Assembly: GCF_001886955.1 (NCBI RefSeq)
Contig: NZ_CP016804.1
Coordinates: 124,001-188,000 of the forward strand
DNA: 64,000 bases
Direction of reading: 5' to 3'
Source: Halodesulfurarchaeum formicicum
GTDB taxonomy: Archaea > Halobacteriota > Halobacteria > Halobacteriales > Halobacteriaceae
Shown here in pieces: positions 54,155-59,096 of this stretch. Every line of letters begins with the position of its first letter. Positions within the stretch are counted from its first letter, which is position 1. The position numbers and the translations under genes were made by a program. Under the pieces are notes generated by a model. It did no database searches. It saw nothing but the letters and a program-made list of their open reading frames with translations, and had not been told where the DNA came from.

Positions 54155-55675
54155 ATGACAGAGGATACAACTTCGGAGGACGCTGCCGCCGGCGCGGACT
54201 CGGTCGCGCTCGACCCGTGGGGCTCCTCCACGATCGCGGACTACCGTGCGCTGTTCGAGGAGTTCGGCATCGAGGCCTTCGAGGAGCTTCTGCCGTCGGT
54301 GCCGACCCCCCACTATCTGATGCGGCGGGCGATCATCTTCGGGCACCGGGACTACGATCGGGTGATCGAGGCCATGCGCGAGGACGAGCCCTTCGCCGCA
54401 CTCTCGGGGTTCATGCCGACTGGCGACCCCCACATCGGCCACAAACTCGTCTTCGACGAACTCATCTGGCACCAACAGCAGGGCGGGGACACCTACGCCC
54501 TCATCGCCGATCTGGAGGCCCACAGCGCCCGTGGGCTCTCCTGGGACGAGATCGACGAGCACGCCGAGGACTACCTGCTCTCGCTTCTGGCCTTCGGCTT
54601 CGACCCCGAGGCGGGGACCCTCTATCGCCAGTCCGAACACCGCGAGGTTCAGGATCTTTCCTTCGAACTGGGGATCGAGGCCAACTTCTCCGAACTGGGG
54701 GCGATCTACGGTTTCGACGGCGAGACCGACGTCTCACACATGCAGAGTGTCGTCACCCAGATGGCGGACATCCTCTATCCGCAACTGGAGTCCCCGAAGC
54801 CCACCGTTATCCCGGTCGGCCCGGATCAGGACCCACACATCCGCCTGGCCCGCGATCTGGCGACCCGGATGCGGTACTTCGGCGTGACGACCGCGTATGC
54901 CAGCTTCGAGGCCGACCCGGCGGAACTGGCCCACGTCGAAGCCGCCTACGAGGCGCTGGCGGACGAGCAGGTCCGGTGTGGTGACGCCGCGGACTGGCTG
55001 GAAACCCACGGCGAGGCCGACCAGCCGGGGCTGGCGGGGGCGATCGAGAAGCTCCAGGCGGCCGGGCAGGAGCCGCTCCGGCCCCGGGTGCGCTTCCTCG
55101 ACCGGAACGCGACCGAGACCGCCTTCGAGGCGCTCATCGAGGCCATCGACGGCGAGAAGCGGGTGTACGACGAGCACGTCGATGCCTTCGATCTGGATCA
55201 CGAGGCGGCCGAGCGCCTGGCCCGCGAAATCGAGGTCGAGAACGGCGGCTACGGCTTCATCCGCCCCTCCTCGATCTACCACCGCTTTATGACCGGGCTC
55301 ACCGGTGGGAAGATGTCCTCCTCGATCCCGGCCAGTCACATCAGCCTCCTCGACGACCCCGAGGAGGGCGCGGATAAGGTTCGAGCCGGAACGACCGGCG
55401 GCCGGGAGACCGCGGCGGAACAGCGCGAGTTGGGCGGCCGGCCCGACGAGTGTCCGATCTACGAGCTGTACGCCTACCTTCTGGCCGGGGACGACGATTC
55501 CTATGCCGAGCGGGTCTATGAGGAGTGTACGGCCGGCGACCGTCTCTGTGGGGCCTGCAAGGCCGAAGCGGCCGAGGAGATGGAGACGTTTTTGGCCGAC
55601 CACCAGGAGCGCCGCGAACAGATGCGCCCGGTGCTGGAGGACCTGGAGATCGAGGTCCGACCTGACCGGATCTGA
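54155..55675 (+). CDS. trpS: Tryptophanyl-tRNA synthetase
   Basis: Class I synthetase, 506 residues, the archaeal/eukaryotic type with an N-terminal extension (about 80 residues). HIGH as PTGDPHIGHKLVFDE; Trp-site QSVVTQMADI; KMSKS as GGKMSSSIPAS. The second gene of an endA-trpS transcript (3-nt gap). Ends 78 nt before the Phe-rich leader frame of pheST. Confidence 0.96.
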   Translation: MTEDTTSEDAAAGADSVALDPWGSSTIADYRALFEEFGIEAFEELLPSVPTPHYLMRRAIIFGHRDYDRVIEAMREDEPFAALSGFMPTGDPHIGHKLVFDELIWHQQQGGDTYALIADLEAHSARGLSWDEIDEHAEDYLLSLLAFGFDPEAGTLYRQSEHREVQDLSFELGIEANFSELGAIYGFDGETDVSHMQSVVTQMADILYPQLESPKPTVIPVGPDQDPHIRLARDLATRMRYFGVTTAYASFEADPAELAHVEAAYEALADEQVRCGDAADWLETHGEADQPGLAGAIEKLQAAGQEPLRPRVRFLDRNATETAFEALIEAIDGEKRVYDEHVDAFDLDHEAAERLAREIEVENGGYGFIRPSSIYHRFMTGLTGGKMSSSIPASHISLLDDPEEGADKVRAGTTGGRETAAEQRELGGRPDECPIYELYAYLLAGDDDSYAERVYEECTAGDRLCGACKAEAAEEMETFLADHQERREQMRPVLEDLEIEVRPDRI

Positions 55676-55723
55676 CCGGCCCGCTGTGTGCGGTCGGTCC
55701 GACCGAGGCTGTGCTTCGCAACG

Positions 55724-55729
55724 TTTTTA
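55724..55729 (+). promoter_or_regulatory. TATA box of the pheST transcript
   Basis: tttttag lies 25-30 nt before the ATG at 55754, exactly the spacing of haloarchaeal leaderless promoters. No other TATA-like stretch is visible between this and pheS at 55873. This places the transcript start at the leader frame. Confidence 0.65.
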
Positions 55730-55753
55730 GCTCTGCTCGTGACACTCACGCCC

Positions 55754-55837
55754 ATGCTCGCCGAATCCACGAGCGGGGCACAGCACGCCGGTGACCAGTC
55801 GATCTGCCCGGGATTCGGTTTCTTTTTCGGGGCCTGA
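55754..55837 (+). CDS. Candidate Phe leader peptide of pheST (27 aa)
   Basis: A short frame starting where the predicted transcript starts: M-L-A-E-S-T-S-G-A-Q-H-A-G-D-Q-S-I-C-P-G-F-G-F-F-F-G-A-stop. Four Phe among seven residues just before the stop resemble the Phe-sensing leader peptides of bacterial pheST and pheA operons. The Phe codons TTC GGT TTC TTT TTC also form a T-rich run, a plausible archaeal termination signal. Uses one rare TTT codon. The next 35 nt lead to pheS. The peptide is below any usual annotation length, so its reality needs conservation in relatives to be proven. Confidence 0.6.
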   Translation: MLAESTSGAQHAGDQSICPGFGFFFGA

Positions 55838-55872
55838 GGACTGTCCGTCGACCTCTTGAGACTTTCCAGACG

Positions 55873-57381
55873 ATGAAACTCCCACCAATCCAGGTCGCGG
55901 TGCTCGAAGCGGCGAGCGCCGACGAACCGACCGACATCGACGATCTCGCCGCACAGCTCGAGGAAAAACCAGAAACCGTCACGGGCGCGGCCTTCGCCCT
56001 GGAAGAGGCGGGGTTGCTCTCGGTGACCGACCGGACCGAGACCCAGGTCTCGCTCACCGAGGAGGGGGCGACCTACGCCACGGACGGCCTGCCCGAAGTT
56101 CGGCTCTACGAGGCCGCCATCGAGGCCGGGGCCGCGGACGAACCCGTTCCGATGGGTGAAGTGCTCGGCGCGGCCGCCCTCGACGGCCCGGCGGTCGACA
56201 TCGCGCTCTCGAACTTCGCCCGGAAGGGGTATGGCAGCATCGACTCGGGGCAACTCTCCGCGACGCCCGAGGCCGATCCGGCCGACGACGAGGAGGCCCA
56301 GGCGCTGAAGCGACTGGCTGCAGGCGAGTCACTCGCCGAGGAGTCCCTGCGTGATCGCCTGGCGTCCCGGAACCTGATCGAGGTCACCGAACGCACCCGG
56401 CGGGCAGTGACGCTGACCGAGGCGGGCGTGACCGAACTCATGGCGGGCGTCGAGGCCACCGAGCGGGTCGACCGACTCACGCCGGCCCACTTGCAATCCG
56501 GGGAGTGGGAGGCGGTGACCTTCGCCGAGTACAACGTGGAGGCCGCCGCGGAGACACCCACGCCGGGCAAACGGCACGTGCTCCGGCAGACCGCAAAGCG
56601 CGTGAAGGAGGTGCTCGTGGGAATGGGCTTCCAGGAGATGGCCGGGCCACACGTCGACGCGGACTTCTGGATCAACGACTGTCTGTTCATGCCCCAGGAC
56701 CACCCGGCCCGGACCCACTGGGACCGCTTTGCCCTGGAGAACCCGCGACGGATCGACGAGTTGCCCGAGGACCTGCTGGAGCGAGTCGAGCGCGCCCATC
56801 GCGAGGGCGTCGGCGAGGACGGCGAAGGGTATCACTCGCCGTGGAGCCGGGACTTCGCAGCCGAATTGGCGCTCCGAGGACACACCACCTCGCTCTCGGC
56901 TCGCTACCTCTCGGGCGAACAGGTCGGGGAGTTAGAACCGCCCCAGCGGTACTTCAGCGTCGAGAAGGCCTACCGGAACGACACCCTCGATGCGACCCAC
57001 CTCCTGGAGTTCTTCCAGATCGAGGGCTGGGTGATGGCCGAGGACCTCACGGTTCGTGATCTGATGGGCACGTTCCGGGAGTTCTACAGCCAGTTCGGCA
57101 TCACCGACCTGCAGTTCAAGCCCACCTACAACCCGTATACGGAGCCGAGTTTCGAGTTGTTCGGGCGGCACCCGGAGACCGACGAACTCATCGAGATCGG
57201 CAACAGCGGGATCTTCCGCCCGGAGATGCTCGAACCGCTGGGTGTCGAGGCCGACGTGATGGCCTGGGGGCTGGCACTCGAACGGTTGCTCATGCTCATA
57301 ACCGGCTTCGAGGACATCCGTGACGTCCACGGGACACTCGTCGATCTCGACTTCCTTCGCGGCGTGGAGGTGGAGTACTGA
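55873..57381 (+). CDS. pheS: Phenylalanyl-tRNA synthetase alpha subunit
   Basis: Class II synthetase catalytic subunit, 502 residues. N-terminal winged-helix repeats (about 1-200) bind tRNA. Catalytic motifs 2 and 3 are present (FSVEKAYRNDTLDATH; ELIEIGNSGIFRPEM and GLALERLLML). Phe-binding residues FKPTYNPYTEPSFE. Its stop shares bases with the pheT start (TGATG), so the two are coupled. Preceded by the candidate Phe leader peptide; no separate promoter is visible before pheS. Confidence 0.96.
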   Translation: MKLPPIQVAVLEAASADEPTDIDDLAAQLEEKPETVTGAAFALEEAGLLSVTDRTETQVSLTEEGATYATDGLPEVRLYEAAIEAGAADEPVPMGEVLGAAALDGPAVDIALSNFARKGYGSIDSGQLSATPEADPADDEEAQALKRLAAGESLAEESLRDRLASRNLIEVTERTRRAVTLTEAGVTELMAGVEATERVDRLTPAHLQSGEWEAVTFAEYNVEAAAETPTPGKRHVLRQTAKRVKEVLVGMGFQEMAGPHVDADFWINDCLFMPQDHPARTHWDRFALENPRRIDELPEDLLERVERAHREGVGEDGEGYHSPWSRDFAAELALRGHTTSLSARYLSGEQVGELEPPQRYFSVEKAYRNDTLDATHLLEFFQIEGWVMAEDLTVRDLMGTFREFYSQFGITDLQFKPTYNPYTEPSFELFGRHPETDELIEIGNSGIFRPEMLEPLGVEADVMAWGLALERLLMLITGFEDIRDVHGTLVDLDFLRGVEVEY

Positions 57382-59096
57382 TGCCGGTCGTCGACGTCGA
57401 TCCCGACGAACTTCGGGACCTGACCGGCCGCACCGAGAAGACCGACGACGAACTCAAAGACGACCTGTTCGGCCTCGGGATCGAGTACGAGGGCGAGACC
57501 GAGGACGGCAAACTCCGCCTGGAGTTCGAGGCCGACCGGCTGGATCGGCTCTCGATCACCGGGATCGCCCGGTCGCTTCGCTACCAGTACGGGGACCTGA
57601 GCGGGATCTACGTGCCGGACACGAACGACCCCGAGTGGACGATCGAGGTGGCCGAGAGCGTGCCCGACGAGCGCCCCTACGTCACGGGAGCGATCGTCCG
57701 CGGCCTGGACCTGGACGAGACCGACCTGGAGGCGATCATCCAGCTCCAGGAGAAGCTCCACGCCACGATGGGTCGCAAGCGCGCCAAGGGCGCGATCGGC
57801 GTCCACGATCTGACGATGCTGAAGGGCGCGCCCGCCGACGGCGGAGCGGGGAAGTCCATCCGCTATCAGGGTGTCGAACCCGCGGGGGACCGCTTCGTGC
57901 CTCTCGATAGCGACGCCGAGATGACCCCGGCACAGGTCCTGACCGACCACTCGACGGGGCGGGAGTACGCCGACCTGGTGAGCGACTACGAGCGCTACCC
58001 GGCGATCTACGACGACATCGGGCTGTTCAGCTTCCCGCCGGTTATCAACGGTCGGCGCACGGAGGTCTCGACCCAGTCCCGTGATCTGTTCATCGAGATG
58101 ACCGGGACCGACCAGTGGACCATCGACAAGATGCTCGCCATCATGGTCTACGCCCTCGATGCCCGGGGTGGGCAGGTCGAGTCGGTGACGGTGGACTATC
58201 CGGACCGAAGCGTGGTCCGGCCGGACCTCTCGCTCTCCCAGAAGACACTCGCCCACGAGACAGTCGAGGACACGCTCGGTCTCTCGCTCTCCCCCGAGGA
58301 ACTGCATGACTTGATCGACCGCTCCGGGCTGGAGATCGCCGCGGAACGGACCGAGGACGGAACACGGGCGTACGAGGTCTCGATCCCGCCTTACCGGGTC
58401 GACGTGCTCCACCCGGTGGACCTGATCGACGACGTGGGCCGGGCGTATGGCTTCAACAACCTCGTCCCGCGGTACCCCGACGTGAGTACCGTCGGGGGGC
58501 GAACCGAGGCTTCGCGTCACGAGGAAGCCGTGCGAGACCTGCTGGTCGGGCTCGGGTTCGAGGATCTGCTGAACTTCAACCTCACGAGCGACGGGGAGCT
58601 CTTCGACCGGATGGGCCTCGACCGGGAGGCAGACGCCTTCGGGGCCGGTGAGCCGCCGCGGCTCATCGAGTCCTACAGCGAGGACTTCACCCACCTGCGG
58701 ACCTGGGCGCTTCCCTCGCTCATGCAGGTGCTGGAGAACAACACCCATCGCGCCTACCCACAGCACCTCTCGGAGATCGGCTTCGTCGCGCAGGTCGATT
58801 CCTCGACGGTCACGAACGTGGCCGAGGGACGCTCGGTCGCGGCCGTGCTGGCCGGTCCTGAAGCGACCTACGAGGACGCGAAGGGCCGCCTCCAGGTGCT
58901 CGCGGATCACTTCGGCGTGGACCTGACGACGCCGGCGACGGACCACCCGAGCTTCATCGACGGGCGGGTGGCCGAAATTCGCCTCGACGGGGATTCGGTG
59001 GGTGTTATCGGCGAACTCCACCCGGCGGTGCTCGTCGAGCACGACCTGGAGGTCCCGGTGGCTGGCTTCGAGTTCGAACTCGGAGCGCTTCGATAA
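57381..59096 (+). CDS. pheT: Phenylalanyl-tRNA synthetase beta subunit
   Basis: 571 residues, the shorter archaeal form lacking the bacterial B1/B8 extra domains. It has the editing B3/B4 part (VRPYVTGAIVRGLDL-like ERPYVTGAIVRGLD), the B5 DNA-binding-like region (LSLSQKTLAHETVEDTLGL) and the catalytic-like core (GFEDLLNFNLTS). Editing of mis-charged Tyr-tRNA(Phe) happens here. One-base overlap with pheS. Its stop touches the stop of convergent pyrD. Confidence 0.95.
   Translation: MPVVDVDPDELRDLTGRTEKTDDELKDDLFGLGIEYEGETEDGKLRLEFEADRLDRLSITGIARSLRYQYGDLSGIYVPDTNDPEWTIEVAESVPDERPYVTGAIVRGLDLDETDLEAIIQLQEKLHATMGRKRAKGAIGVHDLTMLKGAPADGGAGKSIRYQGVEPAGDRFVPLDSDAEMTPAQVLTDHSTGREYADLVSDYERYPAIYDDIGLFSFPPVINGRRTEVSTQSRDLFIEMTGTDQWTIDKMLAIMVYALDARGGQVESVTVDYPDRSVVRPDLSLSQKTLAHETVEDTLGLSLSPEELHDLIDRSGLEIAAERTEDGTRAYEVSIPPYRVDVLHPVDLIDDVGRAYGFNNLVPRYPDVSTVGGRTEASRHEEAVRDLLVGLGFEDLLNFNLTSDGELFDRMGLDREADAFGAGEPPRLIESYSEDFTHLRTWALPSLMQVLENNTHRAYPQHLSEIGFVAQVDSSTVTNVAEGRSVAAVLAGPEATYEDAKGRLQVLADHFGVDLTTPATDHPSFIDGRVAEIRLDGDSVGVIGELHPAVLVEHDLEVPVAGFEFELGALR

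Follow-up and report, generated by a model that had tools for sequence, protein, structure and literature searches.

Control of amino-acid genes by a leader peptide on which the ribosome stalls is a textbook bacterial mechanism that needs transcription and translation to be coupled. In the pheST (pheM) and pheA leaders of enteric bacteria, and in trpL and hisL, a leader open reading frame (ORF) is rich in codons for the regulated amino acid and the pairing of the RNA depends on the ribosome. To our knowledge a supply sensor of this kind has been proven in bacteria only, and no ribosome-mediated attenuator from an archaeon was found in the open-access literature searched. The T-box and other curated leaders of aminoacyl-tRNA synthetase genes likewise exert cis-RNA control by charging state, the kind of control proposed here for pheST of haloarchaea, but the T-box binds tRNA directly whereas in the haloarchaeal leader sensing would be by the translating ribosome.

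Haloarchaeal promoters carry TTWT and CGAAA motifs, and 72% of the protein-coding transcripts of Haloferax volcanii are leaderless (PMC4983044). The same study lists an upstream ORF (uORF) of 26 amino acids (pI 5.9, 2772 Da) in the long 5′UTR of H. volcanii pheS (HVO_2948), with a transcription start site at the uORF and none at pheS, and a 23-amino-acid uORF before a tryptophan--tRNA ligase gene (PMC4983044). Its main text gives no amino-acid content, RNA structure, conservation or mechanism for the pheS uORF. What is new here is the RNA helix of the leader.

The pheST leader and its promoter

The window analysed was a stretch of 64,000 nucleotides from Halodesulfurarchaeum formicicum, the genome of which is a single 2.09-Mb contig; all features described lie on its forward strand. 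The genes for the alpha and beta subunits of phenylalanine--tRNA ligase, pheS (55873..57381; NCBIfam NF003210, E = 1.9e-174) and pheT (57381..59096; NCBIfam TIGR00471, E = 1.5e-123), follow trpS (54155..55675; NCBIfam NF008928, E = 3.2e-284), with endA, encoding a tRNA splicing endonuclease (NCBIfam), upstream of the trpS, leader, pheS and pheT cluster. The initial annotation had placed before pheS a 27-codon frame ending in Phe-Gly-Phe-Phe-Phe-Gly-Ala, with a 35-nt gap to the gene and a TATA box positioned for a transcript beginning at the ATG of the frame, all of which was confirmed on the sequence. This leader ORF (55754..55837; 27 codons and a stop codon) encodes MLAESTSGAQHAGDQSICPGFGFFFGA and is predicted to be read from a leaderless mRNA. 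It is supported by homologues and by a match (E = 1.3e-10) to a covariance model of the leader and the element that follows it, termed R1. The putative sensor codons, Phe-Gly-Phe-Phe-Phe, occupy 55814..55828. In a screen of the window's own genome for small frames with a leaderless-type promoter and a long gene downstream, the leader was alone among 169 candidates in having four Phe in seven residues and also forms an 8-bp helix from its own 5′ end; no second convincing leader of the same design was found among these frames.

The core promoter, P1, consists of a BRE-like CGCAACG and a TATA-like TTTTTA (CGCAACGTTTTTA, 55717..55729, -37 to -25 relative to the leader ATG) and would set the RNA 5′ end at the ATG. 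This spacing is identical to that of the consensus CGnAACGTTTTTG obtained across 92 distinct leaders, in which T stands at -29 in 91 of the 92, and TTTT begins at -29, -30 or -31 in 92 of 98 leaders. Some 25-50 nt ahead of pheS, 111 of 119 haloarchaeal loci have a further box that resembles a promoter (CGGAACCGNTAAC and variants). It is present in 16 of the 17 loci in which no leader was recognised and is probably a basal pheST promoter, such that in these relatives pheST could bypass the leader. The case for a single transcript carrying leader and operon has on its side the fixed position of P1 at the ATG and the published H. volcanii start site, and against it this second box. In the window genus no CGGAACCGNTAAC-like box was found before pheS, the 35-nt spacer (55838..55872) being without it, and as such pheST may depend there on P1 or on read-through from trpS.

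Conservation of the leader in haloarchaea

A total of 119 haloarchaeal pheS loci (25 from the family, 80 from named GTDB species and further loci, with some genomes or species present in both collections) was compared, yielding 93 leaders distinct in sequence. A homologous Phe-tailed frame stands before pheS in 102 of the 119 loci; within the family, the automatic filter accepted 20 of the 25 loci and inspection by eye added another. The leader accompanies pheS whether trpS or another gene lies upstream, and trpS is therefore taken to be outside the element. Model R1 matches 333 of 393 haloarchaeal genomes in 81 of 87 genera, a count that measures spread rather than new kinds since R1 was built from pheS leaders, and the matches that were compared by eye with pheS positions lie directly upstream of that gene. 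Some genomes gave a second R1 match, which at the loci inspected was the same inverted repeat matched on the mirror strand. In 26 family genomes there are 20 occurrences of the motif GGNTTYGGNTTYTTYTTY, 17 of them being the pheS leader. The frame and its Phe cluster are thus kept across haloarchaea, answering the question of conservation on which the initial annotation had made its reading depend.

The peptide is conserved in its opening residues, M-x-[S/P]-E-[P/S], and in the G-F-G ahead of the Phe run, and its middle is free to differ in both sequence and length. Within the tail, G-F-x-F-F-F, 88, 88, 77 and 70 of 88 leaders retain Phe at the successive Phe positions, and codon changes are mostly synonymous between TTC and TTT. 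The leader is as such a short ORF enriched in Phe codons, as in a ribosome-mediated attenuator, and its Phe run is kept outside the RNA arms described below. One of the haloarchaeal leaders (26 amino acids, pI 5.94, 2792 Da) resembles the H. volcanii uORF in these listed properties, by which alone the two were compared, and the published uORF has the same place and about the same length and pI as the leader (PMC4983044). The proposal of a Phe-coding leader peptide tied to pheST, on a transcript that starts at its ATG, is well supported by this published uORF and the haloarchaea-wide conservation, and comparison of the loci indicates that a conserved and structured Phe-coding leader is almost certainly real.

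The leader is absent from about 15% of genomes, whole genera among them, and a comparable Phe leader was not found at 29 pheS loci of archaea outside the order but within the same phylum. Halarchaeum species (L018, L021-L023, L045, L051 and L066) have neither leader nor element and carry a different gene upstream of pheS, the end of which resembles by eye an ACT domain or aspartokinase. One leader (L325) retains an intact 10-bp helix with an altered Phe run and without a stop where one is usual, and is possibly a decaying copy. A typical haloarchaeal (Natrialbaceae-like) pheS with its leader was also seen on a contig filed as a Candidatus Pacearchaeota MAG (L043), probably a binning error.

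Pairing between the RNA 5′ end and the Phe codons

The 5′ end of the leader RNA is predicted to pair with the codons at its own tail. In this helix, termed helix A, the partners of leader nucleotides 8-16 (CCGAA[U/C]CCC) are the base preceding the tail and GG[A/G]UUCGG, the Gly-Phe-Gly codons, placing the 3′ arm just ahead of the Phe run. RNAalifold finds helix A unaided. Counted over 64 aligned leaders, 97.9% of its cells are paired, with many compensatory changes. At nucleotide 13 and tail position +2, 91 leaders carry T-A (43), C-G (40), T-G (7) and C-C (1), against a mean of 44.8 and a maximum of 60 Watson-Crick pairs in a shuffle control that leaves the relatedness of the leaders in. Nucleotide 8 and tail position +7 are C-G in 76 and T-A in 7 of the 91, with the change from C-G to T-A coupled to a Gly-to-Asp change in the peptide, and nucleotide 16 and tail position -1 are C-G in 71 and G-C in 3. 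Over the structure as a whole, 146 cells showed changes in both partners, compared with 45.4 in shuffles, and pairing fell from 95.8% to 21-55% on sliding the partner strand. In a held-out set of 34 unused leaders, 268 Watson-Crick and 13 G-U pairs were found in 306 cells (92% paired), with nucleotide 16 and tail position -1 again flipping (C-G 15, G-C 10). These repeated two-way flips, together with the held-out set, speak against a pairing pattern due to inheritance alone.

The arms have been rebuilt (CTCGAACGCG/CGCGTTCGAG and similar) in four leaders from a single related group, three of which belong to the same genus. RNA pairing is kept there to within one mismatch, and one of the four leaders has the peptide AFEPFF. 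Since the arms changed together as the peptide became AFEPFF, the helix has been preserved in the RNA through a change of the peptide. Helix A also accounts for two features of the coding sequence: Glu is encoded by the unusual codon GAA in 82 of 86 leaders, and the first TTC does not vary (88 of 88).

In the window the arms are GCCGAAUCC (leader nucleotides 7-15, 55760..55768) and GGAUUCGGU, the Gly-Phe-Gly codons (55811..55819), each supported by covariation, RNAalifold, the held-out set and the centroid fold, in which helix A is present; the stability of the fold of the window leader is not unusual against shuffles (z = +1.33). The arms lie 34-103 nt apart, with the distance changing by multiples of three. 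The 3′ arm ends 16 nt before the stop codon in 64 of 91 leaders and 13 nt before it in 20, and in 88 of 91 the last Phe codon has one to three further codons after it. Helix A as defined by covariation overlaps the sensor codons and is therefore a structure that a stalled ribosome could disrupt. A search against Rfam 15 gave no match at E ≤ 1 in nine loci including that of the window, placing these loci outside the T-box and other Rfam families.

A second element downstream of the leader

A second structure, element B, with the form C-GGYGGA-n-[hairpin]-n-CGAAACC-G, accompanies 86 of 93 leaders and begins in most of them 4-10 nt past the stop codon (for example 2866-2922 of locus L095). It matched no Rfam family in the loci scanned. 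Its purine-rich internal loop, GGYGGA/CGAAACC, is nearly invariant and its hairpin covaries freely, with the hairpin arms 85-93% paired at five positions in one register only, against shuffle values of about 50% for four positions and 87% for the fifth, nearly invariant one. Across the loci, leader and element B occur together in 93 and are both missing from 16, with the leader alone in 9 and the element alone in 1. Element B was not found in the window genus, where the spacer between leader and pheS is without it, or in Halobacterium salinarum, both of which have the leader.

Base pairing does not make helix A and element B mutually exclusive, and only the placement of the ribosome would alternate them. 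An alternative pairing between the Phe tail and element B (GGUUUC/GAAACC) is possible in some species, for which covariation is uninformative as the element B strand hardly varies.

The T-rich run and transcript ends

Termination in H. volcanii has been described at a T stretch ending at C (95%) and at coding-region hairpins (59%; PMC7237163), and FttA/aCPSF1 binds and cuts U-rich nascent RNA and has been discussed as a monitor of coupling (PMC11616081). In the window the T-rich run TTTCTTTTTC (55819-55828) lies immediately 3′ of the helix A 3′ arm. The initial annotation had read this run as a terminator working without a hairpin, a view that finds no support here, the T-rich Phe codons being directly 3′ of a helix with strong covariation. 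T runs of at least five are confined to the Phe tail and occur in only about half of the leaders or species. The leader does have a hairpin (helix A) with a U-rich run, but such a T stretch is neither universal nor above codon background. Enrichment of TTT in the Phe tail was considered as evidence for a U-tract and rejected, the significance at one position against pheS (p = 3e-19) being lost against the leaders' own T-ending codons (p = 0.38). With T runs of this length in about half of leaders and TTT at the leader background, the counts give no sign of selection for the run.

Proposed mode of action

The haloarchaeal leader resembles bacterial attenuators in having a short Phe-codon-rich ORF directly before the cognate genes and, as proposed here, an RNA structure dependent on ribosome position. 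It differs in that its mRNA is leaderless, with the mRNA 5′ end pairing with the sensor codons themselves, in lacking a canonical terminator hairpin and U tract downstream, and in being served by an archaeal RNA polymerase and archaeal termination factors.

Comparison of the loci supports the leader, the position of its promoter, helix A, the second element and the spacing, and the leader is very probably a Phe-responsive cis-regulator of pheST, whatever its kind. That it is a cis-acting sensor of Phe supply working by the position of the ribosome on the leaderless mRNA is the reading we favour and consider probable. Transcription would start at the leader ATG and the ribosome would translate 24-30 codons ending in Gly-Phe-Gly-Phe-Phe-Phe, the RNA 5′ end (codons 3 to 5 or 6) being able to pair with the Gly-Phe-Gly codons as helix A with the U-rich Phe codons next to it. 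When Phe-tRNA is scarce the ribosome would stall on the Phe codons, cover the 3′ arm and the U-rich run and leave helix A open; when it is plentiful the ribosome would reach the stop codon 13-16 nt past the arm and clear it, such that helix A could form by the exposed U-rich run. If a ribosome is taken to occupy some 12-15 nt upstream of the P site and about as many downstream, one waiting at any of the three Phe codons of the run would hide the 3′ arm completely or almost completely. A ribosome at the stop codon would have just cleared the arm, or nearly so, and would reach the 5′ strand of element B. In the relatives that have it, element B would be masked by the ribosome at the stop codon and free on a stall, switching in the opposite direction to helix A.

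Helix A beside exposed U-rich Phe codons would be the OFF state, which stalling prevents, and low Phe-tRNA should in consequence raise pheST. This OFF state would end, or mark for ending, most leader transcripts before pheS, either by termination at a hairpin and T stretch or through the U-rich-RNA nuclease FttA/aCPSF1. The FttA route would fit the timing better because the decision can then fall after RNA polymerase has passed. The stalling, the sign of the response, low Phe giving high pheST, and the level of control, termination or otherwise, are predictions, and the specific switch of helix A through a premature transcript end seems to us evenly poised or a little better.

Alternative explanations

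The leader may instead act on translation or RNA stability, with its structures gating ribosome access or re-initiation at pheS on a read-through mRNA that Phe stalling opens. In keeping with this, the 5′ arm (nucleotides 8-16) lies where a ribosome starting on a leaderless mRNA would cover it and could gate translation, T runs are not universal and the gap between leader and pheS in the window is only 35 nt. In most relatives, however, 75-220 nt separate the leader stop codon from pheS, which is far for re-initiation, and an alignment reaching shortly past element B showed no conserved pairing with the region around the start of pheS. As such this explanation appears unlikely, though worth keeping in view.

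Another possibility is that element B is itself the sensor, bound for instance by phenylalanine--tRNA ligase or another protein, with the leader serving only to position it. Its presence in most of the leaders, its covarying arms and its nearly invariant loop would suit such a role. The window genus and H. salinarum nevertheless keep leader, helix A and Phe codons where element B is missing, and the element was found without a recognised leader at one locus only, making a primary sensor of this kind doubtful.

The arms of helix A also form a near-perfect inverted repeat close to the promoter, as would a DNA operator for a regulator of P1 with the Phe codons incidental, but the tolerance of G-U pairs (7 of 91 leaders at one position), an arm distance that varies in threes with no helical phasing and the retention of Phe at three run positions outside the arms (88, 77 and 70 of 88) render this very improbable. 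That the frame encodes a small protein acting in trans, adjacent to pheS for co-expression only, is the least credible reading, since the start and end residues conserved across an order (SEP/PES and GFG) are those forced by helix A and change in pairs with it, and the middle is free in sequence and length.

Leaders of trpS genes

On plasmids of Haloferax and Natronorubrum, trpS stands behind a 23-codon leader that includes Trp codons (CWRWHA), namely MVSTSHANCWRWHAFREVDSIAV followed by a stop codon, or one of its relatives (L122 at about 823-894, L123 and L128; also L125, L127, L129 and L130). Its 5′ end pairs with a segment after the Trp codons, the two arms having changed together in one species from TCCACTTCCC/GGGAAGTGGA to TCTACTTCCC/GGGAAGTAGA, and it matches the published 23-amino-acid uORF in length and place (PMC4983044). 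Natrinema-type trpS leaders are shorter with one Trp, and plasmid trpS of Haladaptatus (L124, L132) has another conserved short leader, TAGGRFWPTTAH followed by a stop codon, with a hairpin around the Trp codon. Judged from few examples, the plasmid trpS leaders are a second leader of similar logic and different sequence.

Implications

Taken at its widest, the proposal is that the leaderless leaders found throughout the haloarchaea, with a 5′ end that folds back on the sensor codons, constitute the first ribosome-position attenuator in Archaea, with one helix reading initiation, stalling and termination and with the trpS leaders as a second, independently built member, a proposal on which we are evenly divided. 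A conserved leader of this kind would open two questions to experiment, in hosts that include the genetically tractable Haloferax: whether archaea have a functional coupling of transcription to translation, and whether it is the T stretch, the hairpin or FttA through which archaeal termination responds to the ribosome.
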